Shown here: one piece after another, positions 1,751 through 16,928 of the stretch
Layout of the letters: every line of letters starts with the position of its first letter
How positions within the stretch are numbered: the first letter of the stretch is position 1
Assembly: GCA_003554945.1 (NCBI GenBank)
Contig: PWHN01000095.1
Span: forward strand, 1-20,171
DNA: 20,171 bases
DNA from: a bacterium
GTDB taxonomy: Bacteria; T1Sed10-126
Direction: 5' to 3'
Made by a program: the position numbers and the translations under genes
Notes under the pieces: generated by a model
Seen by the model: only the letters and a program-made list of their open reading frames with translations
Told to the model about the DNA's origin: nothing
The model's database searches: none

Positions 1751-2926
1751 ATGACTGACTCAGATAAAATTTATCTCGACCAGGCGGCCACTTCCTATCC
1801 CAAACCCGAACAGGTCTATCAAGCCGTAGATAACTTCGCCCGCCGGATTGGTATAGGCGGTGGGCGCGGTAATTACGTGGAGAACCGGCAGGTGGCGGAC
1901 CTGGTGGCAGACGTGCGTGAAAAAATTGCCCGGCTGCTTAACTGCCCCGCAGAGCAGGTGGTTCTCAACTCGGGGACGACTGAATCTATGAACCTGCTGC
2001 TCAAGGGCTGTCTTGAAGCTGGTGATCACGTCATAATATCAGCGCTTGAGCACAACTGTGTTCTGCGTCCTTTGCGTTACCTGGCGCAGAAGCGTGGTAT
2101 TGAATTGGACATTTTGGAAGCTGACCTGGAGAAGGGGTTCGAGGTCAACGAGCTAAAGGACACGCTGCGTCCACAAACACGTCTCTGTGTCATCAATCAT
2201 ATAAGCAACGTCTTTGGGACAGTTCAGCCGGTTGAAGAAGCGGCCGAGATTATTGCTGAAAGAGACGATCTGTTTTTTGTTCTTGACGGCGCCCAGAGCC
2301 TGGCGACATATCCCTTAGACGTCAAAAAACTTGGTGTTGACGCCGTCTGTTTTTCCGGCCACAAAGGAACCCTTGGTCCGACCGGCACCGGTGGATTTTA
2401 TATAAACGAGAAGATGATGCCTGAGGTAAAACCGCTGATTTTCGGCGGCACCGGTAGAAACGGCGGAACCCGAATTCACTCCGACGAGCTGCCGCACAAA
2501 TACGAAGTTGGCACTCAAAATTCCTGGGGTATAGCCGGTTTGGAAGCAGGTCTGGACTATCTGCTCGACCGTGGAGTTGACGCGATCAGCGCCCGGATTG
2601 ACCGGCTTACAGAGCGGGCGGTTGCGGGGCTGCGTAAAATTGAAGGTGTGCAAATTTTTCAACCGGACCCCGCCAGACATCACGGCGTCATTTCTTTCCG
2701 CCTCGCCGGTCTGCCTGTTGTCGACTCTGCAATGTTGCTGGACAAGCTATTCAATATAAAACTGCGGGCCGGGCTTCACTGCAGCCCGCTCGCACATAAA
2801 GAGATTAGTACCTATCCAGAGGGGACTCTACGGGCCAGCTTTGGCGTTATGAATGAGATGTCGGAGGTCGACGTATTTGTTAGCGCTGTAGAGCAACTGG
2901 TAGAGGAGAGCAGTCAAGAGTTTTGA
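1751..2926 (+). CDS. Cysteine desulfurase-like class V aminotransferase
   Basis: A 391-residue PLP enzyme of aminotransferase class V. Members of this group take sulfur from cysteine as an enzyme-bound persulfide, or act as selenocysteine lyases. Visible features are LDQAATSYPKP at residues 9-19, TTES for cofactor phosphate binding near 76, His101, the VLDGAQ motif with Asp179 and Gln182, the Schiff-base lysine Lys205 in SGHKG, and a candidate catalytic cysteine Cys344 in GLHCSP followed by GTLRASFG. It resembles the SufS-like group found alone in Firmicutes rather than an iscS with iscU next door. GAGG precedes the ATG. It overlaps hemL by four bases (TTGA), so translation is probably coupled. 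It could feed sulfur to cofactor synthesis; its acceptor is not visible here. Confidence 0.85.
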   Translation: MTDSDKIYLDQAATSYPKPEQVYQAVDNFARRIGIGGGRGNYVENRQVADLVADVREKIARLLNCPAEQVVLNSGTTESMNLLLKGCLEAGDHVIISALEHNCVLRPLRYLAQKRGIELDILEADLEKGFEVNELKDTLRPQTRLCVINHISNVFGTVQPVEEAAEIIAERDDLFFVLDGAQSLATYPLDVKKLGVDAVCFSGHKGTLGPTGTGGFYINEKMMPEVKPLIFGGTGRNGGTRIHSDELPHKYEVGTQNSWGIAGLEAGLDYLLDRGVDAISARIDRLTERAVAGLRKIEGVQIFQPDPARHHGVISFRLAGLPVVDSAMLLDKLFNIKLRAGLHCSPLAHKEISTYPEGTLRASFGVMNEMSEVDVFVSAVEQLVEESSQEF

Positions 2927-4197
2927 AACGAGAACAAAATTTTCGCCGGGCAAAAAAAGTTATTCCGGGCGGTGTTAATAGTCCGGCGCGCGCTTACTCC
3001 CGGGTGGATGTGGAACCGCCTTTTATTGAAAAAGGGGAGGGACCTTATCTCTATGACACTGCGGGCAACAGATACATCGATTATGTTAATTCCTGGGGCG
3101 CCTTAATTTTTGGCCACGCCTATCCTGCAGTGGTTGAAGCAGTCCGTAAAGCAGCAGAGAAAGGGACCAGTTTTGGGGCGCCGACCGAGCGCGAAACAGA
3201 GCTGGCCAAACTGGTCCGCGAAGCATTTCCTTCAATCGAAATGATTCGATTTGTTAACTCAGGTACCGAGGCAACCATGAGTGCTCTGCGCCTGGCGCGT
3301 GGCCTTACCGGCCGTGACCTGGTAGTGAAAATGTCTGGCTGTTACCATGGCCACGGGGACAGTTTTCTTGTTGAAGCTGGTTCCGGGCCGGCAACTCTGG
3401 GCCGGCCAAACAGTCCCGGGGTACCCAAAGTGTTGAGCCGGAAAACAATAACTGTACCCTACAATGACGGGCAAGCGGTAGAAGAGGCATTTGACCGCTA
3501 TGCTGGTGAGATCGCGGCAGTCATCCTGGAACCGGCGGCTGCAAACATGGGTGTGGTTCCACCAATACCGGGATATCTGCAAAAACTGCGCGATATAACG
3601 GAAGCTCACGATAGTCTTCTGATTTTTGACGAAGTAATCACCGGATTTAGAGTCGCTTTCGGGGGCTGCCAGGAACTGTATGAAGTAGAGGCCGACCTGA
3701 CCTGCCTGGGAAAGATTGTAGGGGGCGGCTTACCCGTTGGGGCTTTTGGCGGCCGAGCCGAAGTAATGAATCACCTGGCTCCTGCCGGGCCTGTTTACCA
3801 GGCGGGAACGCTTTCTGGAAATCCTCTTGCCACTGCTGCCGGGCTGGTGACGCTGCAGGCGTTGAAAGAAAAAAACATTTACCGGAAATTAGACCGGCGG
3901 ACTGAATTTTTAACGACAGAATTGGAAAACTTTGCCCGGGAATTACAATTAACTCTGCAAATTCAGTGGCTCCCCGGGTTGTTCAGTCTCTTTTTTACTG
4001 AGTCGGAAGTAACTAGCTTCGAAGACGCAAAGAGAAGCGATAATCAATTATTTAAAAAATATTTTGAACAAGCGCTGTCTGCTAATATATATCTGCCACC
4101 CTCGCCTTTTGAATCTAATTTTATCAGTCTTGCTCACGATGATAAAATACTCCGAAAAACGCTGCGTATTTTAAAAGAGATATTGAATCAACTATAA
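2923..4197 (+). CDS. hemL: Glutamate-1-semialdehyde 2,1-aminomutase
   Basis: The enzyme converts glutamate 1-semialdehyde into 5-aminolevulinate, the second step of the C5 tetrapyrrole pathway. The 424-residue product has the family length. Signature segments are AKKVIPGGVNSP at 10-21, the GTEATMSALRLAR stretch at 114-126, YHGHGD near 141, the IFDEVITGFR motif with Asp236, and the PLP lysine Lys264 in LGKIVGGGLPVGAFGG. The start is TTG inside the stop of the upstream gene (TTGA), behind GAGGAGAG about 14 bases away, which points to translational coupling. It is the only C5-pathway gene of the window on the plus strand: hemA, which makes its substrate, and hemB, which uses its product, lie in the facing operon. 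Confidence 0.95.
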   Translation: MKREQNFRRAKKVIPGGVNSPARAYSRVDVEPPFIEKGEGPYLYDTAGNRYIDYVNSWGALIFGHAYPAVVEAVRKAAEKGTSFGAPTERETELAKLVREAFPSIEMIRFVNSGTEATMSALRLARGLTGRDLVVKMSGCYHGHGDSFLVEAGSGPATLGRPNSPGVPKVLSRKTITVPYNDGQAVEEAFDRYAGEIAAVILEPAAANMGVVPPIPGYLQKLRDITEAHDSLLIFDEVITGFRVAFGGCQELYEVEADLTCLGKIVGGGLPVGAFGGRAEVMNHLAPAGPVYQAGTLSGNPLATAAGLVTLQALKEKNIYRKLDRRTEFLTTELENFARELQLTLQIQWLPGLFSLFFTESEVTSFEDAKRSDNQLFKKYFEQALSANIYLPPSPFESNFISLAHDDKILRKTLRILKEILNQL

Positions 4198-4202
4198 ACA
4201 AG

Positions 4203-4240
4203 CACAAAAATTAAATTGAGTAGTTTAATTTTCCCTTGTG
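4203..4240. terminator. Possible bidirectional AT-rich terminator between convergent genes
   Basis: AAAATTAAA (4207-4215) pairs with TTTAATTTT (4224-4232), and outer CACAA (4203-4207) can pair with TTGTG (4236-4240). It lies across the 13-base gap between the convergent ends of hemL and the Rrf2 gene, and its A and T runs would serve either direction. The stem has almost no G or C, so strength is doubtful. Confidence 0.35.
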
Positions 4241-4627
4241 TTTTTTCCAGCGGTCAACCAGCTCCTGAAACGTATTCTGGAAAATAGTCTCGAATTCCTC
4301 GCTTCTTTCGTTCCAGTAACTCTCCAAAACAGTGCTGTTTAAATTGACCGACGCAGCCAGGTCAACCGTTCCCTGCAATACTTGAATTACTTCCCAGATT
4401 GTTATTTCATCAGGAGACCGCGCCAGTGTGTAACCGCCTTTAGCTCCCCGATGACTTTGAGTAATTTCTGATTTTTTCAGTTCCAGAAGAATCTGATCCA
4501 GGTAGTTGCGAGGAATATTTTGCTTGTTGGCGATGTCTTCAACTCGCACCGGTCCCTGTCCGTGCCGGCAGGCCAGCTCGAAGACAGCACTAATCCCGTA
4601 GAGAGTACGTGAAGCAAGTTTTAACAT
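4211..4627 (-). CDS. Rrf2-family transcriptional regulator (CymR-like, no cluster cysteines)
   Basis: A 138-residue Rrf2-family winged-helix repressor. The N-terminal part (1-83) has the family pattern: LASRTLYGISAVFELA, then DIANKQNIPRNYLDQILLEL as the recognition region, then the wing RGAKGGYTLARSPDEITI. The three cysteines that hold the [2Fe-2S] cluster in IscR or NsrR are absent; the only cysteine is Cys20. It is therefore closer in type to CymR, the cysteine-metabolism repressor of Bacillus, which senses cysteine status by binding a CysK-type protein. A cysteine synthase and a whole sulfur-assimilation cluster next door make that role attractive, but it is inference. AAGGGG precedes the ATG by ten bases. 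It follows the end of the large minus-strand cluster by 85 bases and might be partly co-transcribed with it. Confidence 0.85.
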   Translation of the reverse strand: MLKLASRTLYGISAVFELACRHGQGPVRVEDIANKQNIPRNYLDQILLELKKSEITQSHRGAKGGYTLARSPDEITIWEVIQVLQGTVDLAASVNLNSTVLESYWNERSEEFETIFQNTFQELVDRWKKHKGKLNYSI

Positions 4628-4712: not shown

Positions 4713-6221
4713 TTATTCGGTTCTGTTAGAGTAAACCTGAATTAAAGCTTCCAGTAGTCCCTCGGCAGTGTGCGGGCTGGCAACGATGTTGGAGTCAGCT
4801 CCGTGGGTTTTTAATTTTTTTGCAGTTACAGGCCCGATGCTGACCGTCTGGTTTCCTGGTAATAATCTATCGCCTCCAATTTGAAAAAAACGATCAACTA
4901 TGGAGGGACTGGTGAATGTTATGAAATCGAGCTCTTCGGGACTTAGCTCCTTAATTTGTTCGGTGGCGTTTGTAATCGGTTTTAGCTGATAGATAGGTAG
5001 CTGCGTGGCGCTCGTTGCTACTTTTTCCAGCTGCCTTTTCAGCTCATCGGAGGCTTCTTGGGCGCGTAGTAGCAGAAGTCGATCATCTGGTCCGATCTTT
5101 TCTAGCAGGCTATCGCCGAGGGCATTGGTAGTAAAACGCTCGGGTATCAGATCGGCCTGCAGACCATGTTTTTGCAATTCTTGTGCAGTTGCCGAACCAA
5201 CACAGGCCAGCTTTGTTTGGCTCAGATGGCGGCTATCAAAACCGCTATCAACCAGTTGCTGAAAGAAAAACTTAACTCCGTTCTGGCTGCAGAAAACGAG
5301 CCAGTTATAGGTTCTCAGATCAGGTAACAACTTCTGCAGTTTATTTTTGCCCTTCCGGCAAAAAACAGGTGAGAGCAGGGGGATGGTGAATGGTTGGCCA
5401 CCCAGTTCAATAATTTGCCGGATTAGCTTTTGATTCTGTCCGGGGGGCCTGGTTAACAGAATTTTTTTGCCAAAAAGAGGCAGTTTTTCAAACCAGCTTT
5501 CAGGGGGACGTTGAGCCGCAGTTTCGCCAATAATTATCAAACCTGGACGGTAGTCCTGGGCTGCCTGCGGATTTTCGGCAAGTTCGCCGAGTTGACAGGA
5601 ATAATAGACCTGGTCTGGTCTTGTCAGTCGGGCGGCGATCAGAGAGGGAGTGTTGGCGGGCTTGCCGGCAGCAAGCAGTTTTCGGGCGACTTGTTTAGCT
5701 CTGGTGACACCCATAAAAACAACCAGAGTTTCAAGCTGAGCCAGGGCCTCCCAGTTGTGTTTAAAATCATCCCGGGCGGTGTGTGCCGTAATTATTCCTA
5801 TCCCAGAGGAGAAGTCGCGATGAGTAAGAGGAACTTCAAGATGGCTGGCGAGTCCTTGCAGGCTGGAGACAGCGGGTATAATTTGAAAAGGGATACTGTT
5901 TTCTCGAAGTTTTTCAATTTCCTCGAAACCGCGTCCGAAAATTAGGGGGTCGCCACCTTTTAAGCGGACTACAATTTGGTCCTTCTCGGCGGCGGCTATC
6001 ATTTTTTTGTTGATATTAGTTTGACTGGTGCCGGGTTCGTTTTTAAGCTTACCGACGTCAACCAGTTTTCGCGCAGGCAAAGAGTGGTAGTCAAAAAAAT
6101 AGGGTGGAATCAACCGATCGTGAAAGATTACGTCGGCTTGTTTTAATATTTGGCGGCTGCGGGAGGGCAATAGTCCGGGTTCTCCAGGCCCGGCACCAAT
6201 CAGGTAAACTTTACCCTGCAT
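4713..6221 (-). CDS. cobA-hemD: Fused uroporphyrinogen-III C-methyltransferase / uroporphyrinogen-III synthase
   Basis: A 502-residue fusion of two consecutive enzymes. The N-terminal half (about 1-245) is the SAM-dependent methyltransferase that turns uroporphyrinogen III into precorrin-2: GAGPGEPGLLP at 9-19, HDRLI near 34, VVRLKGGDPLIFGRG at 84-98, PAVSS near 116 and PLTHRD at 131-136. The C-terminal half (about 250-502) is uroporphyrinogen-III synthase, which closes hydroxymethylbilane: KKILLTRP near 252, NWLVFCSQNGV near 306, and FITFTSPSIVDRF near 433. The fusion order places the second enzyme N-terminal, a known arrangement in Firmicutes. The ATG lies inside the last codons of hemC (11-base overlap), with GGAGG 12 bases ahead. 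It is the last tetrapyrrole gene of the cluster and commits the pathway to siroheme or cobalamin rather than heme; no hemE is present. Confidence 0.95.
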   Translation of the reverse strand: MQGKVYLIGAGPGEPGLLPSRSRQILKQADVIFHDRLIPPYFFDYHSLPARKLVDVGKLKNEPGTSQTNINKKMIAAAEKDQIVVRLKGGDPLIFGRGFEEIEKLRENSIPFQIIPAVSSLQGLASHLEVPLTHRDFSSGIGIITAHTARDDFKHNWEALAQLETLVVFMGVTRAKQVARKLLAAGKPANTPSLIAARLTRPDQVYYSCQLGELAENPQAAQDYRPGLIIIGETAAQRPPESWFEKLPLFGKKILLTRPPGQNQKLIRQIIELGGQPFTIPLLSPVFCRKGKNKLQKLLPDLRTYNWLVFCSQNGVKFFFQQLVDSGFDSRHLSQTKLACVGSATAQELQKHGLQADLIPERFTTNALGDSLLEKIGPDDRLLLLRAQEASDELKRQLEKVATSATQLPIYQLKPITNATEQIKELSPEELDFITFTSPSIVDRFFQIGGDRLLPGNQTVSIGPVTAKKLKTHGADSNIVASPHTAEGLLEALIQVYSNRTE

Positions 6222-7134
6222 TGGTCATAATTTCCTCCCCGCCCCGGGCAAGAAGTTGTTTGGCCAGGCGGAGACCGATATCTTCGGCGTTTTCAGGCTC
6301 GTCCGTTAACTCACCGGTGAGCTTTTTCTCCCCGGTCGGATCGGTGAGACTGCCGGCGAGATGAAGCTGATTTTTCTGCAATTTGCCGACTGCACCAACC
6401 GGTATTTGACATCCACCGCCAAGTTCTTTCAGTAAGGCACGTTCTGCCCGGCAGACAACAGCGGTACAGGGGTCATTAATTTTCTCAAGCCAGCGCCGAA
6501 TCTTTCTATTTTTTCTGTTGCAGACAAGAGCGACGGCTCCCTGACCGGGTGCCGGCAGTAGAATTTCCCGGGGGATAGTTAGAGTCGGGAAATCATCGAT
6601 ATTAAGCCTCTGCAGGCCAGCCGCCGCCAGGACAAGACAGTCGTAGTCTGTTTTATTGTCGTTCAACTTTGCCAGCCGAGTTGGCACGTTACCACGACAG
6701 GATAGCAGCTTTAGATCCGGTTCGTGGTAAAGTAAATTGGCTCGCCGCCGGGAACTACCGGTGCCGACGACGAGTCCTGGCTGGATCGATGGAATTTGCG
6801 AGCTGTTTTGGGGAGCGACCAGTAAATCTCCCGCAGCCCTCCGCTTTAAAATAGCGGCGATGACGAGTGGTTCAGGTAGTGAGGCCGGACAGTCCTTGAG
6901 ACTGTGAACAGCGGCGTCGGCTTCACCGGCTGCAACCATACGGTCTAATTTTCTGGTGAAAAAGCCCGGCTCGTCAAGCGTGTGAAGCGACTTATCTCGG
7001 TTAAGGTCTCCGTCTGATTTAGTAGTGATCAAGTTAACTCTGTCAATTGCGGAGATTTCTTCCAGTTTACTGGCAACCGGTCGGGCTTGAGCTAAGGAGA
7101 GCCGGCTGTCGCGGCAGATAAGAGTAATATTCAT
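6211..7134 (-). CDS. hemC: Porphobilinogen deaminase (hydroxymethylbilane synthase)
   Basis: The enzyme joins four porphobilinogens into hydroxymethylbilane on a dipyrromethane cofactor. The 307-residue product carries AAVHSLKD with catalytic Asp81, GTGSSRRRANLL near 124, the RGNVPTRLAKL segment near 147, LLPAPGQGA at 192-200, and LGGGCQIPVG with cofactor cysteine Cys242. The N-terminal motif is divergent (ICRDSRLSLAQA, where most members have a GTR-S-LAL-Q pattern). The frame is open from a TTG at 7143, but GAGG lies nine bases before the ATG at 7134 and only one base before the TTG, so I use the ATG. It starts five bases after hemA ends and overlaps cobA-hemD, so all three are clearly co-translated. 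Confidence 0.95.
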   Translation of the reverse strand: MNITLICRDSRLSLAQARPVASKLEEISAIDRVNLITTKSDGDLNRDKSLHTLDEPGFFTRKLDRMVAAGEADAAVHSLKDCPASLPEPLVIAAILKRRAAGDLLVAPQNSSQIPSIQPGLVVGTGSSRRRANLLYHEPDLKLLSCRGNVPTRLAKLNDNKTDYDCLVLAAAGLQRLNIDDFPTLTIPREILLPAPGQGAVALVCNRKNRKIRRWLEKINDPCTAVVCRAERALLKELGGGCQIPVGAVGKLQKNQLHLAGSLTDPTGEKKLTGELTDEPENAEDIGLRLAKQLLARGGEEIMTNAG

Positions 7135-7139
7135 CGAGT

Positions 7140-8411
7140 TCAATCCTCGGCCAGGGGATTGGGTAATTCAAACAACTGGCTCAGGACCTCAGTGCTTTGG
7201 CGTCCGTCTCCGGCTTGAAGCTGATGTCGATAGTTGCGCAGTGGTCGGTTGAGCAACTTTTCAGTCAGTTTAACCGATATTTTTTCAAGGTTTTCCTCGT
7301 TTTGAGGGCTGTCCAAATCTTCGTTTGCAGCCAGCACTTGTCGGCTCTGTTCCTGGAAATAGTGCTTGAGTTGCTTGAAAAGGGGAGCGGCGCGCTGTGT
7401 TTTTAACCAGGCGTCAAATTTTTGTTTTTCGTTATCGACGACGGACCGGGCCTGCTGGTAAAAATCAGTCTGACTAAACTCCTGGTAATTTATGTTTTTT
7501 AACTGGTCAACGTTAAAAAAATTTACTCCCGGTAGTTCTCCAACCTCGGGTTCGACATCGCGCGGTACGGCGAGGTCAATTATTAATAACGGCTCGTCCA
7601 ACCGGCGGTTGTCGAGGGTTTGTTCAAGTTGCTTTTTTCTAAGGATAAGGTTGGGGGAAGAGGTGGCTGTGATTATCAGGTCACTGCGGCCCAGGTATCT
7701 ATTTAATTGCGAATAATCCAGCGCTCGTCCGCCAAATTTTTGGGCTTTGCGTTCAGTCAACTGGCGTTCCCGGCCGGTGATGTAAAGCCGGTCCGGGTCG
7801 TATTCAAGCAGGTTGCTCAGACAAAGTTTTCCCACCCGGCCTAAGCCCAGAACCAGTATCGCGCTATCCGCAATATTGTTGAGTTCGTTTTGAACCAGTT
7901 GAACCGTAGTTTCACCAATTGAATGAGGATAAGCCTGACTGCGCGGTAGAGAGTGAACATCACTGGCGGCACGCAGGGCTGTTTGAAAGAGGCGATGCAA
8001 GTAGCGGCCGCAGGTCTCTGCATTTCGGGCGGTATTATAGGCTTCCTTAACCTGGCCGGTTATCTCGGTTTCGCCAAGAATCAAGGAGTCCAGGCCGGTC
8101 GTGACCCGCAGGAGGTGTTCAACCGCATCGGAGTTATTTTTGATCTGAATGAAGTTTTTCCTCGTCGGAAATTGAAAATTTCTCTCCCAACATAGTTCAA
8201 GCAGTGGTTGTTGCGGCTTGGTTAGATTTTTACCGGCTGTGAAATAAAGCTCTGTCCGGGCGCAGGTGGAGAGCAGGACACCGGTTTCGATCAGTCCTTT
8301 GTCTTGAAAATCAGCCAAAAATTCCGCACTTCTGCCGGACGAGAAGTTTAATTTCTCGCGTATATCGAGGGAAGCAGAATGGTGGTTAATTCCAGCAGAA
8401 ATAATCTTCAT
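7140..8411 (-). CDS. hemA: Glutamyl-tRNA reductase
   Basis: The enzyme reduces Glu-tRNA(Glu) to glutamate 1-semialdehyde with NADPH, the first and usually rate-limiting step of C5 tetrapyrrole synthesis. The 423-residue product has GINHHSASLDIREKLNF at 7-23, the active-site segment STCARTELY with nucleophile Cys50, LDSLILGETEITGQVKEAY around 107-125, a Rossmann motif LGLGRVG at 188-194, IIDLAVPRDVEPEV and a helical dimerisation end from about 320. The residue after the catalytic cysteine is Ala51, where most relatives have Asn, and the NADPH loop GLGRVG replaces the common GAGEMG. GAGG before the ATG lies inside a perfect palindrome (8416-8430). It sits between hemB and hemC. Confidence 0.94.
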   Translation of the reverse strand: MKIISAGINHHSASLDIREKLNFSSGRSAEFLADFQDKGLIETGVLLSTCARTELYFTAGKNLTKPQQPLLELCWERNFQFPTRKNFIQIKNNSDAVEHLLRVTTGLDSLILGETEITGQVKEAYNTARNAETCGRYLHRLFQTALRAASDVHSLPRSQAYPHSIGETTVQLVQNELNNIADSAILVLGLGRVGKLCLSNLLEYDPDRLYITGRERQLTERKAQKFGGRALDYSQLNRYLGRSDLIITATSSPNLILRKKQLEQTLDNRRLDEPLLIIDLAVPRDVEPEVGELPGVNFFNVDQLKNINYQEFSQTDFYQQARSVVDNEKQKFDAWLKTQRAAPLFKQLKHYFQEQSRQVLAANEDLDSPQNEENLEKISVKLTEKLLNRPLRNYRHQLQAGDGRQSTEVLSQLFELPNPLAED

Positions 8412-8415
8412 TTTA

Positions 8416-8430
8416 TTACCTCGGAGGTAA
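8416..8430 (-). promoter_or_regulatory. Palindrome covering the hemA ribosome binding site
   Basis: TTACCTC and GAGGTAA are exact inverted arms around one central base, and the second arm contains the GAGG that serves as the hemA ribosome binding site, six bases before the ATG. In RNA the site could fold on itself. It lies in the 47-base hemB-hemA gap, the longest gap between the heme genes. Confidence 0.4.
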
Positions 8431-8458
8431 AGTTGTTAAAAAACTTACGTATGAGCGG

Positions 8459-9424
8459 TTAATTCGCCACTAATTTCAAGAGTTCATCAGCCCAGTAAGT
8501 TATGATCAGGTCGGCGCCGGCGCGTTTGATGGAGAGGGTCGTCTCAAACATTAACTCCTTTTCATCGGCGTAACCTGCGTTGGCGGCTGCTTTAATCATT
8601 GCGTATTCGCCGCTGACGTTGTAGGCGGCCAGTGGTCGATCAATTTCGAGTTTTACCCGTCTGATTACATCGAGATAGGCGAGGGCTGGTTTAACCATCA
8701 CAATGTCAGCACCTTCTTTTACATCCAGGCGCACTTCCTTAAGGGCCTCCCGGGCGTTGCCCGGATCCATCTGGTAGCTGCATCGATCTCCAAACTCGGG
8801 AGCTGAGTCAGCGGCGTTTCTAAACGGTCCGTAAAGGCTCGAGGCATATTTGGCGCTATAGCTGATAATTCCGGTATCCGTGTGGCCGTTCTCGTCCAGT
8901 TGCGAGCGAATATAATTGACGCGTCCGTCCATCATATCAGAGGGAGCGACGAAGTCGGCGCCTGCGGCGGCGTGACTTCGGGCCACCCGGCCCAGCAGCT
9001 TAAGGCTGGCATCGTTATCTATACGATCGCCCCGCACTACGCCGCAGTGGCCGTGGTCCATGAAGGCGCAGAGGCAGACGTCGGTTATCACTGTCAATCC
9101 AGGGTAAGTATTTTTTATTTTTTTCACCGCCCGCTGGGTGATACCATCTGTGGCGTAGGCGCGAGAAGCCTCAGAATCACGTATTTCAGGAACTCCAAAG
9201 AGTAGTATGGCTTCAAGACCCAGCTCAACTGGCTCGGCCAGAGCCCCGGGTAGATATTCGACGGGGTAGTGGTAACAGTCAGCCATTGAGGGTATTTCTT
9301 CGGGCTGGCTCTTGCCGGCCGCCGCAAATACAGGTCTAATTAAGTCGCTGGTGTTCAGGTTGTTTTCCCGAACCAGGGACCGAATACTTTCAGTACGTCG
9401 AAGGCGCCGCGGACGTTGTTTCAT
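8459..9424 (-). CDS. hemB: Delta-aminolevulinic acid dehydratase (porphobilinogen synthase)
   Basis: The enzyme condenses two 5-aminolevulinates into porphobilinogen. The 321-residue product shows RRLRRTESIRSLVREN at 7-22, the zinc-site segment DVCLCAFMDHGHCG with Cys117, Cys119 and Cys127, the APSDMMDGRV motif at 160-169, and the two Schiff-base lysines Lys192 (SYSAKYASSLYGPFR) and Lys245 (VMVKPALAYLD). Three cysteines in the metal segment put it in the zinc-dependent class rather than the Mg/Asp-rich class. AGGTGA precedes the ATG. It begins 17 bases after sirC ends. Confidence 0.97.
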   Translation of the reverse strand: MKQRPRRLRRTESIRSLVRENNLNTSDLIRPVFAAAGKSQPEEIPSMADCYHYPVEYLPGALAEPVELGLEAILLFGVPEIRDSEASRAYATDGITQRAVKKIKNTYPGLTVITDVCLCAFMDHGHCGVVRGDRIDNDASLKLLGRVARSHAAAGADFVAPSDMMDGRVNYIRSQLDENGHTDTGIISYSAKYASSLYGPFRNAADSAPEFGDRCSYQMDPGNAREALKEVRLDVKEGADIVMVKPALAYLDVIRRVKLEIDRPLAAYNVSGEYAMIKAAANAGYADEKELMFETTLSIKRAGADLIITYWADELLKLVAN

Positions 9425-9441
9425 ATTTATTCACCTAACAA

Positions 9442-10008
9442 TCAACATAGATCAGCCAGCAGTTTAAATATTTTTTGGCGTTTATCTTTGTTATCTACTT
9501 CCGCCTTAATCAATTTACGTAATTGGCTAAGAATCTCCGTCTTAAGACCCCAGGAAGGGTCGTATTTTTCTTCCAGTTCGCGGCGGATACGAGCTGCGAG
9601 AGCGGGGCTTGCACCGCCGGTGCTGATGGCAATTTGCAGGGGAAATCGTTGTATTACAGCGGGAGAAATATAGTCGGAACTCTCCATTTGGTCGACAACG
9701 TTGACCAGAGCTCCACAGGTCCGCGCATCAGCTCCCACTTGCTCGTTGAGCTGGTGGTTATCGGTAGCCGCTATTACGATAAATTTGTTCTCACAAAGTT
9801 CTTCTCGATAATCTTCTTCTAAAATAGAGTCCTCCGGCAGGAGCTTGAGTATTTTCTCTGAAACACCAGGGGCAACGAGTTCAACCAAAGCCCCCCGATC
9901 CAGCAGAGCTTGAACCTTGCGAGCTGCAACTTTTCCGCCGCCGACGACCAGACATCTGCGGTTCTTTACTGACGTAAACATCGGCAAAAAAACTTCTCTG
10001 TCAGTCAC
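9442..10008 (-). CDS. sirC: Precorrin-2 dehydrogenase (siroheme synthase N-terminal type)
   Basis: The enzyme oxidises precorrin-2 to sirohydrochlorin with NAD+. The 188-residue product has the Rossmann start RCLVVGGGKVAARKVQALL at 18-36, VIAATDNHQLN near 78, NVVDQ with Asp106 (matching the catalytic Asp of CysG and Met8p), and AISTGGASPALAARIRREL. The start is GTG at 10008, because VFLPMF before the Rossmann fold aligns with the usual N-terminus; GGAG is about 14 bases ahead, a little far. The size fits the dehydrogenase-only SirC class better than bifunctional Met8p or CysG. The iron-inserting step therefore probably needs a chelatase encoded elsewhere, or a weak second activity here. It sits directly after the sulfite reductase that needs the product. 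Confidence 0.9.
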   Translation of the reverse strand: MTDREVFLPMFTSVKNRRCLVVGGGKVAARKVQALLDRGALVELVAPGVSEKILKLLPEDSILEEDYREELCENKFIVIAATDNHQLNEQVGADARTCGALVNVVDQMESSDYISPAVIQRFPLQIAISTGGASPALAARIRRELEEKYDPSWGLKTEILSQLRKLIKAEVDNKDKRQKIFKLLADLC

Positions 10009-10017
10009 GAAGAAAAC

Positions 10018-12315
10018 TTACGCTCCTTTTTTAACCAGTAGTTCGTAATAATCCTCAACTTTTTCCTGTTTTAAAATTGTGTGGCCGTCTTCTCGCAAAC
10101 TGGGGGGGACGTTTTCGATTGGTTCGCCGTCATCGACCATTATTTTCAAAATTTCTCCGGCTTGAAGCTGTTCCATTTCAAGTTTAGCCTTAACGTAGTT
10201 AATCGGGCACTCCACTCCGCGCAGGTCTTTTTCTCGATCAAAATCACCAGCGGAGTCTTCTGCCGGGCTTTCTCCGGTTTCCTCTGTTTCCCCGGGGAAA
10301 TTAAAGGAGCTGTCCATTGCTTCGTAAAGATCGGTTACCTCTTTTAATAGCTCGCGGACCTGCTCAGGACTAACCTCGCTAAGCTGATCACTTACGCGGG
10401 CTGTCTCCACAAGGTCCTTGTATTCCGGAGAAATAAGTTCAGTCTTCAGGAAGTGCTGCTGGAAGAGCCTGAAAATCTCAGCCGGATCGTCGGCGTCTTC
10501 GCCGCGGGTCACCAGCAGTGCTCGGGCTGTAGCAATCAAGGCTTCTTTCAGGTCCCCACGGTCTTTCTCCGCTTTTTTTAGCTGAGAACGAGCTTCCTTG
10601 AGGTCCGATTCTATCAAAGAAATGACGCCGGCGCCACACTCGCCCTCGCCAACCTTTTCAAGACTGAACTGCTCCTGGGCATACCAGTCGTAGTAGTAGT
10701 TTCTATCCTCTGTAAAGGGAGGTATGGAGGCGTATTCTTCAACTAATTCTTCCAATTTATCCTGCCCCCCGTTTTTAAAGTAGGTATTAAAGTCTTTGGC
10801 GTCCTCGGCCTGATAGTCTCGCAGGAAATCAGCTACCAGTTCGGGGACCTCGTAGCCGGGAACAACGCCAATCTCGCCGGCCAGGTTGTGGTCCAGTCTT
10901 CCGGCGGCAACAACCTGGTAGCAGGGTACCGCACGATCGTCGTTACGGCGTATGATACCGTGAAAACCAAGCTGGGCCAGTGGATGGTGGCCACAAGAAT
11001 TGGGACAGCCGGAAATGAATAGTTTTAATTGTTTACCGTCGGAACTTACCGGTGTTTTTTGGAGCTTTTCATCAATTGCCCGGCTTAAATTAGGTGAGTG
11101 ACACAACCCCAGTTTACAAGTCGCTGCTCCCTTACAGGCCCGCGCTTTAACCGGGGAGAGGGGTTGGCCGTAAGCTGGTTTTATTTCGCTCAGTTCTTCT
11201 TTGACTTGTTTCAAACGGTCGCCGGGGACCCCTTTAAGGATAAAGTTCTGCGACTGCGCAGTGTAGATGTTATTGTCGGCGTGTTCCCGGCTTAAAGCGG
11301 AAAGCTTACGAAAATAAGCTGGAGGTAAATCACCCCGGGGAATTGGAATTAAGACGGAGTAATAACCGTTTTTGTCAGAACGTACGTTGGCTTTGAACCA
11401 ATCGTCTTCAACGGCCGGTGTTTCTTCTTTGACCGCCGGTCGTTCAGCGGGTAGGTCCGGCAATTGAAAGTTCATCTCTTCTTTTGAATGTTGTTTTTCG
11501 ACGTATTCCCGGCAAAGCCTGCGAAACTTATCAACACCGTATTTCTGTTTGACAAATCGCAGGCGCGCCTGATGTTTGTCTTCGTAGTTACCATGTTCGC
11601 GGAAGAACTGCTTTATTCCTTCGGCCACATAAGGAACCTCGGCCGGTTCTATGAAATCGAACACTTTAACACCGGTGGCTGAGTGGGCTCCCAGACCGCC
11701 GCCCGCATAAGCTTCGTAGCCCAGTGTTCCATTTTTATTTTTCGGAATAAATCCCATGTCTGTATAGGCGGCATAAGCGCAATCCCGGCGGCAGCCGGAG
11801 AAAGAGATCTTGTATTTACGAGGCATTTCATAAGAGTCTTCTCGCGGCACAAGCTCTTCGGTTAGTTTTACTGCTGCTGGAGCGGCTGGCAGCAGTTCAT
11901 TCGAACAGCCGCCGCTGAAGGGGCAGTTTGTTATATTGCGGACCGTGTTGCCGCCGCCACCGATCGCGGTTAAATTAACCTCTTTTAACCGGTCAATAAT
12001 TTCAGGAAGATTTTTTACTCCGGGCAGTCCCTGCAACTGAATATCCTGCCGGGTAGTTATGTGTGGTTCTTCTTCAATAAATTCTTCGGCGAGCCCGGCC
12101 AGAGTTTGAGCCTGGGGGGGAGTTATCCCGCCGCCGGCGATGCGCACCCTGACCATGTAATTTTGTTCTTCGCGTTGTTGATAGATTCCGCGTGGAACGC
12201 GAAGAGCTTTAAAGACACGTTCAGTAATTTCACCGGCCTGGTAGTCCGCTATTTCTTGCTTGAATTGTTCCAGCTCATTCTCGATCCGGGAATCTATTTG
12301 GTAAAACGAAGACAT
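10018..12315 (-). CDS. Siroheme sulfite/nitrite reductase with C-terminal TusA-like domain
   Basis: A 765-residue siroheme/[4Fe-4S] reductase, by context most likely sulfite to sulfide. Half one (about 1-275) has RTRQD-type siroheme contacts (HITTRQDIQLQG at 85-96), GNTVRNI with Arg126 and PRKYKISFSG with Lys167 and Lys169. Half two (about 305-510) has the usual cluster motif Cys394-x5-Cys400...Cys437-x3-Cys441 (GCPNSCGHH). Unusually, half one also has a full set: Cys131-x5-Cys137 (CPFSGGC) and Cys175-x3-Cys179 (GCRRDC), which are normally lost there. Residues about 560-672 are a charged helical segment I cannot name. Residues 697-765 are TusA-like (LRGVECPINYVKAKLE, Cys703; VDDGEPIENVP). No ferredoxin or flavin domain is present, so electrons come from a separate donor. 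GGAGG lies eight bases before the ATG. Confidence 0.9.
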   Translation of the reverse strand: MSSFYQIDSRIENELEQFKQEIADYQAGEITERVFKALRVPRGIYQQREEQNYMVRVRIAGGGITPPQAQTLAGLAEEFIEEEPHITTRQDIQLQGLPGVKNLPEIIDRLKEVNLTAIGGGGNTVRNITNCPFSGGCSNELLPAAPAAVKLTEELVPREDSYEMPRKYKISFSGCRRDCAYAAYTDMGFIPKNKNGTLGYEAYAGGGLGAHSATGVKVFDFIEPAEVPYVAEGIKQFFREHGNYEDKHQARLRFVKQKYGVDKFRRLCREYVEKQHSKEEMNFQLPDLPAERPAVKEETPAVEDDWFKANVRSDKNGYYSVLIPIPRGDLPPAYFRKLSALSREHADNNIYTAQSQNFILKGVPGDRLKQVKEELSEIKPAYGQPLSPVKARACKGAATCKLGLCHSPNLSRAIDEKLQKTPVSSDGKQLKLFISGCPNSCGHHPLAQLGFHGIIRRNDDRAVPCYQVVAAGRLDHNLAGEIGVVPGYEVPELVADFLRDYQAEDAKDFNTYFKNGGQDKLEELVEEYASIPPFTEDRNYYYDWYAQEQFSLEKVGEGECGAGVISLIESDLKEARSQLKKAEKDRGDLKEALIATARALLVTRGEDADDPAEIFRLFQQHFLKTELISPEYKDLVETARVSDQLSEVSPEQVRELLKEVTDLYEAMDSSFNFPGETEETGESPAEDSAGDFDREKDLRGVECPINYVKAKLEMEQLQAGEILKIMVDDGEPIENVPPSLREDGHTILKQEKVEDYYELLVKKGA

Positions 12316-12332
12316 TCTATCGCCTCCAGCGA

Positions 12333-12767
12333 TTAGGTGGTTATTATGGGTACTTCGGTTACGTTGTCCTCCTCGTCAATTATAAAGCCGCGGAACACCG
12401 GTTTCTCATCGGCCAGAGAGACGATCAGGTAGACAGTTGTTGGGTAGAAAGCCAGCCGTTTATCCTCAGGCGAAGGATAGGCTTCGGTTTCAGGATGGCT
12501 GTGGTATATACTCAAGACCACGTCATCGGTATCACGAAGACTTTTAAAGACCTCAAATTGTTCTTTGGGTTCCATCATGTAGTGCTCTTCGGACTCGTCT
12601 ACATTTGTCATTTTGTGGACGGTTTTGACCCGCTCATCACGGCCGGAAAGTAGTCCGCAGGCTTCAAGGGGAGCCTCGGCTTGGCAATGGTCGACTATCT
12701 GTCGCTGCTGTTTTTTAGTCAGGTGCAGCCTTTCGGGCGGTTCAAAACTCACAGACTGGTTCTTCAT
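12333..12767 (-). CDS. JAMM (Mov34/MPN) metalloprotease, HcyD/Mec-like
   Basis: A 144-residue zinc isopeptidase of the JAMM family. The motif is complete: catalytic Glu35 in PLEACGLL, His89 and His91 in YHSHPETEAYPS, and Asp102 ten residues later. In mycobacteria the relative Mec cleaves the CysO-cysteine adduct to release cysteine. In Wolinella, HcyD trims the carrier and then releases homocysteine from it. The neighbouring ThiS-like carrier, ThiF-like enzyme and MetY make such a role likely here. The ATG lies inside the end of the thiF-like gene (26-base overlap) with GAGGTGG just before it, and the sulfite reductase follows after 17 bases. Which adduct (cysteine or homocysteine) it cuts cannot be told from sequence. 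Confidence 0.88.
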   Translation of the reverse strand: MKNQSVSFEPPERLHLTKKQQRQIVDHCQAEAPLEACGLLSGRDERVKTVHKMTNVDESEEHYMMEPKEQFEVFKSLRDTDDVVLSIYHSHPETEAYPSPEDKRLAFYPTTVYLIVSLADEKPVFRGFIIDEEDNVTEVPIITT

Positions 12768-13545
12768 AATCCACCTCGCGCGGCTCGGTTATAGCGGGGG
12801 ATTTGCCGCAGACCGGACAGTTGTCGTTGCGGTTGACTTCAGCGCGTCGAAAGTTCATGTTTTTAGCGTCAACCATTAATAAACGATTGGTCAACAGTTC
12901 GCCGTGGTCAAGGATAAAGCGCAGTGTTTCAGCCGCCTGGATTGTGCCGAGCATCCCGGCAACCACTCCGAGCACGCCCGCCTGACGGCAACTGGGGACG
13001 GAGTCGGGATCGGGTGGTTCGGGGAAAATACAGCGCAGACAGGCGTTATCTGGCAAATAAGTAAAGGCCTGTCCCTGGAAACGTAGGATACCGGCGTGAG
13101 AATAGGGGGTGCCGGTAAGGACACAGGCATCGTTGACTAAAAATTTAGTTGCAAAATTGTCAGTGCCGTCCAGAACAAAGTCGTAGTCTTCGACGAAATC
13201 CTGCGCGCTGTCGGGCAAAAGTCGTTCCTGATAAAGATTAAATGTTACATCGGGATTTAGCTGCCGCAGCTTCTCCGCTGCCGAGGCGGTTTTATCCCGG
13301 CCTACATCACCGGTGAAGTGAACAATCTGGCGCTGCAGGTTGGAAAGATCGACAACGTCGTCGTCGATTATACCGATTTCACCAACTCCGGCCGCCGCCA
13401 GATAAAAAAGAGCCGGGGAACCAAGTCCGCCCGCACCGACAACCAGAATTTTTGCATTCAAAAACTTGCTTTGTCCTTCGCCGCCCACGTCAGGTAAGAT
13501 TATGTGTCTGCTGTAGCGTTCAATCTGTTCTTCGTTAAAGTCCAT
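12742..13545 (-). CDS. ThiF/MoeB/HesA-family carrier-adenylating enzyme
   Basis: A 267-residue E1-like enzyme that would adenylate the C-terminal glycine of a ubiquitin-fold sulfur carrier. Visible: YSRHIILPDVGGEGQ near 11-25, the nucleotide loop GAGGLGSP at 37-44, LSNLQRQIVHFTGDVGRDK around 67-85, DGTDNFATK at 126-134, zinc cysteine pairs CLRC (169, 172) and CPVC (243, 246), and the candidate catalytic Cys186 in SCRQAGVLG. There is no C-terminal rhodanese domain, unlike MoeZ, so sulfur must come from another protein or free sulfide. The frame is open upstream to 13584, but GGAGGT lies eight bases before the ATG at 13545. That ribosome site is written within the last glycine codons of cysH. 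Its partner is presumably the ThiS-like protein two genes upstream. Confidence 0.9.
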   Translation of the reverse strand: MDFNEEQIERYSRHIILPDVGGEGQSKFLNAKILVVGAGGLGSPALFYLAAAGVGEIGIIDDDVVDLSNLQRQIVHFTGDVGRDKTASAAEKLRQLNPDVTFNLYQERLLPDSAQDFVEDYDFVLDGTDNFATKFLVNDACVLTGTPYSHAGILRFQGQAFTYLPDNACLRCIFPEPPDPDSVPSCRQAGVLGVVAGMLGTIQAAETLRFILDHGELLTNRLLMVDAKNMNFRRAEVNRNDNCPVCGKSPAITEPREVDYEEPVCEF

Positions 13546-13547
13546 GC

Positions 13548-14291
13548 TTATATACCTCCGCCATCTTTGTAATGAAGTCCACATTCTTTCTCGCTGCGTT
13601 CCCAGGGGAATTTACCGGAACGTGCCGGTCGGTCCGGTTGGACCGGAAAGTGACAGGTTCCACAACCGATAACTTTGTATTTTTCCCCGTGTTCGGATTC
13701 GTAGTCGTAGAGCGGATGAATCTGAACGTCGTTTTCTGCGATGTAGTCGTCAAGATCCGCTTCCGTCCACTCAAACATCGGGTTGATTTTCAATATGTGC
13801 CCGCCGTCCTCACGGTTTTCATAGTAAGCCTTCTTCATGTTCGCGGCTCGAAAAGCCGACTGGTCGGCACGCAGGCCACTGACCACCGCCTCCAGGTCGG
13901 CCTCAAGTCGCCGCGCCGGGTTGATTTTACGCACCTGGCAGCACCGTTTACGCTCCTTTGCCGAAAAAAGGTGTCCCCATTGACCCTGCTGATTATTTAA
14001 TTGCTGGAGCTCTTCGGTGTCGGGCTTTAAAATTTCAACGTCTATATTGTATCGAGCCTCAACACTTTTAATGAATTCATACGTTGACTCAGGGTGTCTC
14101 AGGGTGTCAACAAAGTAAACACGAAAACTGTCCACCACCCGTGAGGTTATGTCAATTATCACAGTTCCGGTTTTTTGGAAACTGGTGCCAATCGCCACCT
14201 GTTTGCCATAGTGTTCAAAAGTCCACTTTAGCAAACGTTCGGCTGAAAATGAGTTTATCTCGTCGAGTTGTTCTTTACTTAATTTGCTCAT
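13548..14291 (-). CDS. cysH: Adenylylsulfate (APS)-type assimilatory reductase, CysH family
   Basis: The enzyme reduces activated sulfate to sulfite with thioredoxin-like donors. The 247-residue product has the nucleotide motif AIGTSFQKTG at 33-42, FVDTLRHPESTYEF at 60-73, KINPARRLEADLEAVVSGLRADQSAFR, NPMFEWTEADLDDYI near 170, and the terminal catalytic cysteine in SEKECGLH (Cys237). Two extra cysteine pairs, Cys117-Cys118 and Cys210/Cys213, are the ligands of the [4Fe-4S] cluster in the APS-using class; PAPS-only enzymes such as E. coli CysH lack them. APS kinase is therefore not needed. Sulfate adenylyltransferase is not in the window. The ATG overlaps the metY stop (ATGA), so translation is likely coupled. 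Confidence 0.94.
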   Translation of the reverse strand: MSKLSKEQLDEINSFSAERLLKWTFEHYGKQVAIGTSFQKTGTVIIDITSRVVDSFRVYFVDTLRHPESTYEFIKSVEARYNIDVEILKPDTEELQQLNNQQGQWGHLFSAKERKRCCQVRKINPARRLEADLEAVVSGLRADQSAFRAANMKKAYYENREDGGHILKINPMFEWTEADLDDYIAENDVQIHPLYDYESEHGEKYKVIGCGTCHFPVQPDRPARSGKFPWERSEKECGLHYKDGGGI

Positions 14292-15520
14292 ACTTTATTC
14301 AAAGCCTCCACAATCTCCTTTTTAAGCTCTTCATAATCTTCCAGTCCGACACATATTCGAACAAGGTCCTCGGTAACGCCCATGGCCCGTTTTTCGTCGG
14401 GATCAAGATCCCGACATATTGTTGATGCCGGATGGATAGCCATACTGCAGGTATCTCCAATATTGACCATGTTTTTAATCAAGTGTAGTGCATTTAAGAA
14501 TTTAAAACATTTTTCTTTTGTTCCCAGTTTCATGGTTAAGATCGCGCCGTAGCGGTTGTTGAATTGTTTTTTGGCCAGTTCGTGATCGGGGTGCTCGCGA
14601 AGCCCCGGGTAGTTAAGTTCCTTAATTTCGGGATGATCCCTGAGCTGTTTGGCCAGCCGCAGTGAATTATTGCAGTGCCGTTTTATACGCGTTCCGAGTG
14701 TTTTCAGGCCGCGAAGCGTCAAACGAGCATTGGCGGGCGATTGATTGGCTCCCAGGGTGCGAATACCCCGCCAGCGTAGCTCGGCCAGAAAGGCCAGCTC
14801 ACCATACTCCGAATAGTTTTCTTTTAAATGTGGGTTTTTATCCCAGCTATACCCGCCGCAGTCAACCACACAACCGCCGACTGCATCTCCATGTCCGCTT
14901 ATAAATTTTGTTGTCGAGTGAATCACAATTCCCGCCCCCTCTTTTGCCGGCTGAAAGAGCAGGGGAGTGGTGACAGTACTGTCGACGACAAGCGGAATTT
15001 TGTAATCGCTGGCAATTTCAGCCAGGGCATTTAAATCAGCCACTCTCAATCCGGGGTTGCTGATAGTCTCAACAAAAATCATTCGGGTGTTTTTGTCAAT
15101 TGCGTCTGAAAATTTTTTCGGTCGGCGTACCGGTAAAAAACGGCTTTCGATACCGTAGTCAGGAAGTAGCCGCGAGAAAAGTGAATAGGTGCCGCCGAAT
15201 AATTCTTGTGACGTAACAATAGAATCTCCCGCGCGTGCCAGAGTCAATACAGTAGCTGCGATCGCCGCCATACCGGATGCCGTGGTTGCGGCGCCGATAC
15301 CGCCCTCCAGATCGGTTAACCGCTGTTCAAGAGCGGCCAGCGTTGGATTGCTCAGGCGGGAATACAGGTGACCAAACTCTCTGCCGGCAAAGATCGCCTC
15401 CAGTTCTTCCGGTGACTCGCGGGCGAAAGCGGTCGCCTCAACCAGGGGGGTGGCCGAAGGCTTTCCCCTGTAGGTGACATCGGGACTAAAGTGGCTCTCC
15501 TGGCCGTCAGGGTTATTCAC
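14288..15520 (-). CDS. metY: O-acetylhomoserine sulfhydrylase (MetY-type Cys/Met metabolism PLP enzyme)
   Basis: A 410-residue PLP enzyme of the cystathionine-gamma-synthase family. Motifs include YSRLSNPTLAALEQRLTDLEGG around 53-74, ASGMAAI near 81, the ETISNPGLRV segment near 151, VVDSTVTTPLL with Asp180, and the PLP lysine Lys205 in HSTTKFISGHGD. Fragments such as GNQSP-like GANQSPANARLTLRGLKTL and NMVNIGDTCSMAIHPAST match the O-acetylhomoserine sulfhydrylase branch more than MetB or MetC. Beside a ThiS-like carrier and a JAMM protease, it may accept sulfur from a carrier thiocarboxylate as described for Wolinella MetY, instead of only free sulfide. The start is GTG with GGGTGGCGGG ahead of it, two bases after the carrier gene ends. 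Confidence 0.9.
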   Translation of the reverse strand: MNNPDGQESHFSPDVTYRGKPSATPLVEATAFARESPEELEAIFAGREFGHLYSRLSNPTLAALEQRLTDLEGGIGAATTASGMAAIAATVLTLARAGDSIVTSQELFGGTYSLFSRLLPDYGIESRFLPVRRPKKFSDAIDKNTRMIFVETISNPGLRVADLNALAEIASDYKIPLVVDSTVTTPLLFQPAKEGAGIVIHSTTKFISGHGDAVGGCVVDCGGYSWDKNPHLKENYSEYGELAFLAELRWRGIRTLGANQSPANARLTLRGLKTLGTRIKRHCNNSLRLAKQLRDHPEIKELNYPGLREHPDHELAKKQFNNRYGAILTMKLGTKEKCFKFLNALHLIKNMVNIGDTCSMAIHPASTICRDLDPDEKRAMGVTEDLVRICVGLEDYEELKKEIVEALNKV

Positions 15521-15522
15521 CG

Positions 15523-15729
15523 TTACCCGCCACCCATAAAATAGAGAAATTCAACACTGTCACCGTCTGAAATCGAGGTCTCATCAAAATTACTGCGCGA
15601 AATCACTTCGCCGTTAAGTTCCACGGAGACCTGTTGGGGCATATCAACGTCTAGTTTTTCGAGTAGCTCAGGAATTTTAATTTGCTCACCCTCAAGTTCT
15701 GTCTCTTCACCATTAACAGTTATCTGCAA
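15523..15729 (-). CDS. ThiS/MoaD-like sulfur carrier protein
   Basis: A 68-residue ubiquitin-fold carrier of the ThiS family. It begins MQITVNGEETEL, has a central VSVELNGEVISRSNF, then SDGDSVEFLYFMGGG, ending in the diglycine needed for adenylation and thiocarboxylate formation. It lies between cysK and metY and shares the operon with a ThiF-like activator and a JAMM protease, with no thiG, thiE or thiH, so a role in cysteine or homocysteine synthesis (CysO/HcyS-like) is more likely than thiamine synthesis. The start codon is TTG, seven bases after GAGGAGG, which is encoded in the last cysK codons. It ends in a glycine, not in an extra alanine as the HcyS precursor does, so trimming before use may not be needed. 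Confidence 0.9.
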   Translation of the reverse strand: MQITVNGEETELEGEQIKIPELLEKLDVDMPQQVSVELNGEVISRSNFDETSISDGDSVEFLYFMGGG

Positions 15730-15731
15730 AG

Positions 15732-16661
15732 TTAATCCTCCTCGCTTTGGTATAGAGTTGTGCTCAGGTAACGCTCACCGCTGTCGGGAAAGATTACAAC
15801 TATTTTTTTGCCCCTGTTTTCCTCTCGTCGGGCGACTTTTAGTGCGGCAGCCAGGGCTGCTCCCGAGGAAATTCCGACGAGAAGTCCCTCGTTGGATGCA
15901 ATTTCACGGGCGGTTTGCATTGCCACCTCGTTTTCAACCTGTTGAACTTCGTCCAGGATAGAGGTATCAAGTATTTCGGGCACAAAGCCGGCACCGATTC
16001 CCTGTATCATGTGTGGTCCCGGCTCGCCACCGGAAAGAACTGCTGAGTCTTTCGGTTCTAGACCAATTAATTCAATAGAGTCATTTCTCTCCTTGAGAAA
16101 CTTTCCTGCCCCTGTTATTGTGCCTCCCGTGCCAATTCCGGCGACAAAAATATCAACCTCCCCATCGGTGTCCTCCCAGATTTCTGGGCCGGTAGTTCGG
16201 TAATGTATCTCCGGGTTAGCGGGGTTTTTGAACTGTTGGGGCATAAAAGCGTTGTCGTTCTCCGCGACGATTTCTTCGGCTTTTTCGACGGCTCCATTCA
16301 TTCCGCCTTCCGCCGGTGTAAGCACCAGTTTGGCACCAAGTGCAGCGAGTAGAGAACGCCGCTCCATACTCATGGATTCGGGCATCGTGAGAATTAGCTG
16401 GTAACCGCGAGCCGCGCAGACAGAAGCCAGACCTATTCCCGTGTTACCGCTGGTTGGTTCAACTACGATGGTATCGGAAGTGATATTTCCGTCTTCTTCT
16501 GCCTGTAGTATCATCGAGGTTCCGATGCGATCTTTTACGGAACCCCCGGGATTGTGAAATTCCAGTTTTGCATAGATTTCAGCGCCATTATCGACAAAAT
16601 TATTAAGACGTATTAAAGGAGTAGACCCGATAAGCTCAGTAAAATCTTCAGCAAAATTCAT
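15732..16661 (-). CDS. cysK: Cysteine synthase (O-acetylserine sulfhydrylase)
   Basis: A 309-residue fold-type II PLP enzyme making cysteine from O-acetylserine and sulfide. It carries IGSTPLIRL at 11-19, [11 protein letters not shown] with PLP lysine Lys43, the substrate loop [25 protein letters not shown] for cofactor phosphate, [14 protein letters not shown], and GISSGAA. These match the CysK branch; the carrier-dependent CysM of mycobacteria is a relative, and sequence alone does not tell whether this one can use a thiocarboxylate. The ATG follows GGAGGT by eight bases. It is the first gene of the twelve-gene minus-strand cluster and sits behind its strong promoter. In Bacillus, CysK also acts as the cysteine sensor for the Rrf2-type repressor CymR, relevant because an Rrf2 gene lies at the other end of the cluster. 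Confidence 0.95.
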
Positions 16662-16705: not shown

Positions 16706-16734
16706 AGTATAGTAGTAGATGGTCTGCATGTCAA
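16706..16734 (-). promoter_or_regulatory. Near-consensus promoter of the sulfur/siroheme cluster
   Basis: On the minus strand TTGACA (16729-16734) and TATACT (16706-16711) are exactly 17 bases apart, about 45 bases before the cysK ATG. Between the -10 box and the ribosome site the sequence repeats TTAGTTACTT and TTAGTTTACTT in direct orientation, a possible repressor site for the Rrf2 protein. A similar AATTAGTT word occurs in the Rrf2 gene's own promoter. The operator idea is inference. Confidence 0.75.
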
Positions 16735-16892: not shown

Positions 16893-16928
16893 ATAACTGC
16901 TTGATTATCACTGGCTGGGGTGAAAATG

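Follow-up and report, generated by a model that had tools for sequence, protein, structure and literature searches.

The 20,171-nucleotide (nt) contig PWHN01000095.1 (assembly GCA_003554945.1; the window below), from a bacterium of the GTDB lineage T1Sed10-126, carries on its minus strand a run of twelve open reading frames (ORFs; 4713-16661) that is likely an operon for assimilatory sulfate reduction by way of a thiocarboxylate carrier, with its own siroheme supply. Every ORF matches its expected family (Pfam or NCBIfam), and the order is cysK, carrier, metY, cysH, thiF, JAMM, sir-tusA, sirC, hemB, hemA, hemC, cobA-hemD, with gaps of 2, 2, 17, 9, 17 and 47 nt (the maximum) and overlaps of 4-37 nt at the remaining junctions. 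These observations bear out the earlier note on this DNA, which described twelve minus-strand genes with gaps of at most 47 nt and many overlaps. Its list of twelve genes stands, but it left out the TusA domain on the sulfite reductase (Sir), the neighbouring hemL and Rrf2-family genes, and the missing separate ferrochelatase. In the order in which they would be transcribed, the promoter and genes are as follows.

16706..16734, minus strand: promoter TTGACA-17-TATACT, 11/12 consensus matches, 44 nt before the start of cysK
15732..16661, minus strand: cysK, cysteine synthase A (TIGR01139, 461.8 bits)
15523..15729, minus strand: ThiS/HcyS-type sulfur carrier (TIGR01683), with a TTG start and the ending ...FLYFMGGG, no extension
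14288..15520, minus strand: metY, carrier-linked O-acetylhomoserine sulfhydrylase (family match and MetY tree)
13548..14291, minus strand: cysH, adenosine 5'-phosphosulfate (APS) reductase type, with KRCC...CGTC and C-terminal ECGLH
12742..13584, minus strand: ThiF/MoeB-like carrier-activating enzyme without a rhodanese domain (280 amino acids (aa), ThiF domain only)
12333..12767, minus strand: JAMM/JAB metalloprotease, metal-binding motif H-x-H-x7-S-x2-D intact
10018..12315, minus strand: siroheme sulfite reductase with a C-terminal TusA domain (residues ~695-763, PF01206)
9442..10008, minus strand: sirC/CysG-N/Met8-like precorrin-2 dehydrogenase, possibly ferrochelatase too, Asp106 aligned with CysG Asp104
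8459..9424, minus strand: hemB, porphobilinogen synthase (Pfam/NCBIfam)
7140..8411, minus strand: hemA, glutamyl-tRNA reductase (Pfam/NCBIfam)
6211..7143, minus strand: hemC, hydroxymethylbilane synthase (Pfam/NCBIfam)
4713..6221, minus strand: cobA-hemD fusion, uroporphyrinogen-III methyltransferase and synthase (Pfam/NCBIfam)

The chemistry predicted from this gene content would begin with APS made by an ATP sulfurylase encoded elsewhere, which CysH would reduce to sulfite. CysH should act on APS directly, because it has the cysteine pairs that mark APS reductases with a [4Fe-4S] cluster. Sir, which is of the NirA/CysI and not the DsrAB type, would yield sulfide and perhaps pass it on via its TusA domain, in which Cys-Pro is invariant. 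The ThiF-like enzyme would adenylate the terminal glycine of the carrier, sulfide would convert the carrier to its thiocarboxylate, and MetY would join this thiocarboxylate to O-acetylhomoserine, with homocysteine cut off by the JAMM protease. A MetY tree sets the cluster enzyme apart from the genome's ordinary MetY, which is encoded elsewhere beside a metX-like gene, although the deep forks of the tree are poorly resolved. CysK would make cysteine from free sulfide or possibly from the carrier; it passes the TIGR01139 (cysK) cut-off and does not reach that of TIGR01138 (cysM), consistent with a canonical cysteine synthase A able to use free sulfide.

All genes for conversion of glutamyl-tRNA to sirohydrochlorin are present when hemL, on the opposite strand, is counted with the cluster. 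HemA, HemL, HemB, HemC, CobA-HemD and SirC would make sirohydrochlorin, with iron probably inserted by SirC itself. Family and protein searches of the window's genome, including a joint query with nine cluster proteins, found hemA, hemB, hemC, cobA-hemD, sirC, cysH and cysK only in the cluster, and Sir likewise; each tetrapyrrole gene is present in a single copy. The organism probably makes no tetrapyrrole other than siroheme, because searches of the same genome, in which controls gave the expected matches, found no uroporphyrinogen decarboxylase, ferrochelatase (HemH), CbiX, CbiK or cobalamin methylase; the sole other tetrapyrrole-methylase match has an RsmI-like length, and all matches to the AhbA/B model fall short of its cut-off. 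Because no separate chelatase was found, SirC may be bifunctional. Bifunctional enzymes have an Asp at the position of CysG Asp104, where Bacillus SirC has Ser (PMC7018833). If siroheme is indeed the sole tetrapyrrole, its genes would therefore stay, and be lost, with the single enzyme dependent on it. The twelfth gene, cobA-hemD, is followed by an Rrf2-family gene and then, on the opposite strand, by hemL and a cysteine desulfurase-family gene.

4211..4627, minus strand: Rrf2-family regulator, CymR/IscR-like (NCBIfam), with its own promoter-like site at 4696-4668
2923..4197, plus strand: hemL, glutamate-1-semialdehyde aminomutase, a convergent neighbour supplying the missing 5-aminolevulinate step
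1751..2926, plus strand: cysteine desulfurase-family gene (SclA/SufS-like), overlapping hemL

Such a joint loss is seen in a sister genome of the same family but another genus, the only other genome examined from this barely sampled phylum. Searches of the sister found no Sir, cysH, sirC, hemA, hemB, hemC, hemL, cobA-hemD or cluster-type MetY; the carrier is not detectable there, and the desulfurase-family neighbour is missing along with hemL. What remains is cysK, whose end immediately adjoins thiF, then JAMM, then, 795 nt further on, the Rrf2 gene. Directly before the thiF start lies a cysH relic consisting of the last ten codons and the stop (8/11 identical), a match equalled by none of 200,000 random stretches; DNA-level shuffles of the cysK-thiF interval are not significant alone, whereas the codon test at fixed position is. 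The gap before Rrf2 holds a hemD relic (27/33 nt identical; 0/1000 dinucleotide shuffles), whose distance from the Rrf2 ATG is as expected (250 versus 268 nt). Because both relics stand at their expected places, the full cluster was probably ancestral, with the reductase and cofactor genes lost jointly in the sister. Neither a candidate remnant of sir downstream of JAMM in the sister nor a stretch after its cysK resembling a carrier start is significant, and the latter was not used. The sister's ThiF begins MDLTEEQI, which makes the ATG at 13545 the probable start of the window's ThiF; with that start it would not overlap cysH. The window's genome has a second ThiF-like gene (L057:5784-6587, 38% identical); the sister has only the cluster type, which there may serve thiamine synthesis. 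The ATP sulfurylase of the window's genome lies on another contig (L077:9609-10766), directly after a V-type ATPase operon, a linkage also present in the sister, which lost the APS and sulfite reductases. The pair of genomes thus provides a clear case of a long cofactor pathway apparently kept for one enzyme, and owing to the joint loss the notion that a tetrapyrrole pathway can be dedicated in this way is open to test.

Carrier-bound sulfur transfer of the proposed kind is known from Mycobacterium, in which the CysO/CysM/Mec system uses a carrier thiocarboxylate and JAMM release for cysteine; that trio is not known to include Sir or siroheme genes, and the window has a CysK-class synthase in place of CysM. 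In 2011, Krishnamoorthy and Begley reportedly described an HcyS/HcyF/HcyD/MetY/Sir route in Wolinella succinogenes; their work is cited in PMC6225789. The window shares with it the carrier, E1-like enzyme, JAMM protease, Sir, clustered sulfate-reduction genes and a carrier-linked MetY distinct from the ordinary one, but differs in including CysK, the Sir-TusA fusion and a tetrapyrrole pathway in the same gene run. The Bacillus subtilis cysH operon, with sumT-sirB-sirC, joins sulfate assimilation to siroheme genes; it is not known to have a carrier module or hemABCD genes. The earlier note's assignment of a Wolinella-type carrier module joined to nearly the whole siroheme route is backed by the missing other tetrapyrrole branches and the joint loss in the sister, but its suggestion that the module is extended here is not supported. 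The sulfur half is a gene-neighbourhood class of Iyer, Burroughs and Aravind 2006 (Table 1, row 4e; PMC1779556) that already takes in PAPS (3'-phosphoadenosine 5'-phosphosulfate)/APS reductase, ATP sulfurylase and sulfite reductase. The window matches this class in its ThiS/MoaD-like carrier, JAB protease, E1 without rhodanese, SirA/TusA (here fused to Sir), sulfite reductase, PAPS/APS reductase and O-acetylhomoserine sulfhydrylase; that paper makes no mention of siroheme (PMC1779556).

The combination with hem genes is likewise found elsewhere. In Ruminococcus bromii, a cluster whose expression changes as one block (L2-63_01134-01158) contains hemA, precorrin-2 dehydrogenase (cysG), hemC, cobA-hemD, hemB, hemL and an Rrf2/IscR regulator, together with a sulfur carrier, MoeZ-like and Mec-like proteins and sulfate-reduction genes (PMC6378601). 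It differs in having a sulfate transporter, CysDN and another reductase set, and the table of its genes lists neither cysK nor metY (PMC6378601). The broader distribution was drawn from 80 named loci around related sulfite reductases, found with an alignment query (a single-sequence scan of the named genomes returned no matches) and annotated with profiles from window proteins; many are cut by contig ends, so that the counts are lower bounds. In 30 loci the same-strand run includes a carrier module, defined as thiF plus either JAMM or carrier; sirC or cobA is present in 27, both occur in 15, and an Rrf2 gene is in the run of 19. One locus, L107 (Verrucomicrobia KR13, contig JAHIJO010000013), has the complete composite on one strand, hemL included, as rrf2-cysH-cysD-metY-carrier-thiF-JAMM-SirTusA-cysK-sirC/hemA-hemC/cobA/hemD-hemB-hemL. 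Its order differs from that of the window, sirC is fused to hemA and hemC to cobA-hemD, and its carrier ends in the extension GGIAN. L136, L140 and L146 combine Sir with the full hem set and no carrier, and L137 is similar. Clustering of sulfur and tetrapyrrole genes is well above chance, because several other loci bear tetrapyrrole genes beside the same sulfite reductase type. The comparison of gene clusters across genomes that the earlier note proposed thus yields the full composite in L107, though in a different order, and related ones in other phyla. The composite is already known in other bacteria (R. bromii, L107), and the window is a further case from a little-sampled phylum; three points are fresh relative to the literature searched, namely a joint gene loss that left relics in the sister, a carrier without a tail, and fusions of the carrier to other enzymes.

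Among standalone relatives of the carrier, 24 of 25 bear an extension after FLYFMGGG, for instance a single Ala in Campylobacterota, Cys in Halonatronum or QR in a PVC (Planctomycetes-Verrucomicrobia-Chlamydiae) bacterium; the exception, L138, has another tail. The window carrier stops exactly at GGG (GGT GGC GGG TAA CGG TGA). Read past its stop, the frame would end -x-Arg-stop, and were the TAA a CAA, the carrier would have the same QR tail as L135. One may speculate that the tail-less form stems from a single C-to-T change; it may also reflect an assembly error. Additionally, carriers are fused in frame, with GGG at the junction, to MetY (L116:7231-8673 and L127:7040-8473), to CysK in an omnitrophotal sequence (L114:1204-2340) and to ThiF (L131:144-1238).

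The chance is about even that the carrier serves MetY alone, as in the Wolinella type, with CysK using free sulfide from the sulfite reductase. The canonical class of CysK is consistent with such a division, as are the many carrier loci that have MetY without CysK (metY in 18 of the 30, cysK in 12, both in 10). It accords less well with the position of the carrier gene, which is separated by 2 nt from cysK on one side and from metY on the other, with the carrier-CysK fusion, with two carrier loci (L126, L114) that show cysK and no metY within their contigs, and with the sister genome, which kept cysK with thiF and JAMM after MetY loss. That CysK and MetY share a single carrier, from which JAMM would release cysteine and homocysteine, is possible though the less probable arrangement. 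It would explain why the same carrier type is fused to CysK in L114 and to MetY in L116 and L127, and why the two synthase genes flank the carrier in the window and co-occur in a third of carrier loci, and the CysO/CysM/Mec system is a precedent for cysteine; however, the window's CysK is of the A class and not of the CysM class that depends on CysO, and the CysK and MetY fusions occur in different organisms. Rather doubtful is a more specific proposal, in which one tail-less carrier feeds CysK and MetY here, JAMM acting in product release only, and relatives make a carrier-client polyprotein (MetY, CysK or ThiF) that is cut at Gly-Gly-Gly. If true, cleavage at this junction would be a control point for sulfur assimilation. 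With the fusions it could be tested directly and cheaply whether one thiocarboxylate carrier supports both cysteine and homocysteine synthesis.

Other functions for the cluster as a whole fit less well. Because every tetrapyrrole route uses hemA, hemB, hemC and hemD, the hem half might lie beside the sulfur genes by chance or make heme or cobalamin for general use, but this is extremely improbable given the lack of later heme or cobalamin genes in the genome searches, the joint loss in the sister and the same linkage in L107, L136, L140, L146 and R. bromii (PMC6378601). A role in sulfite or sulfate respiration, in line with the electron-sink function that the R. bromii authors propose for their cluster (PMC6378601), is very unlikely in view of the assimilatory reductase type and the neighbouring cysteine and homocysteine synthases. 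Several points nevertheless weigh against an assimilatory carrier operon with dedicated siroheme synthesis. The second MetY means that methionine need not come via the carrier route, and the window carrier, with nothing after Gly-Gly-Gly, needs no trimming, unlike Wolinella HcyS-Ala. Asp106 of SirC hints at ferrochelatase activity but is no proof of it, and the adjoining loop reads DQME, not DAPK. Since the two assemblies are drafts, 93.5% and 91% complete, absences are not final.

The twelve genes are arranged like one operon and may well be co-transcribed. The near-consensus promoter recognized in the earlier note is kept in the sister, as TTGACC-17-TATACT ahead of its cysK, and no terminator-like site was found in any intergenic gap of the cluster; the note had named separate strong promoters or terminators between the sulfur and heme halves as evidence that would speak against its reading. 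The sole notable internal promoter-like match (8439-8410) was rejected as a hemA promoter, as its -10 element abuts the hemA start codon and the site lies within a dispersed repeat. This repeat, of ~34 nt, occupies the hemB-hemA gap (8412-8458), comprises the TTACCTCCGAGGTAA palindrome and a flank, and has nine other matches in the genome; the hemA ribosome-binding site lies within the palindrome. Similar copies in the sister (L042:649-683) stand beside a gene with an NHYHLL motif like that of REP-associated transposases, the product of which has no Pfam match. No Rfam family was found in the window, and a search for a shared Rrf2 operator gave no convincing candidate; the Rrf2 gene itself is kept in the sister beside JAMM. 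Upstream of the cluster, a 223-aa ORF (16920-17591) with no Pfam or NCBIfam match immediately precedes and overlaps a hydE-like gene, and the sister has retained both as a pair (48% over the two).

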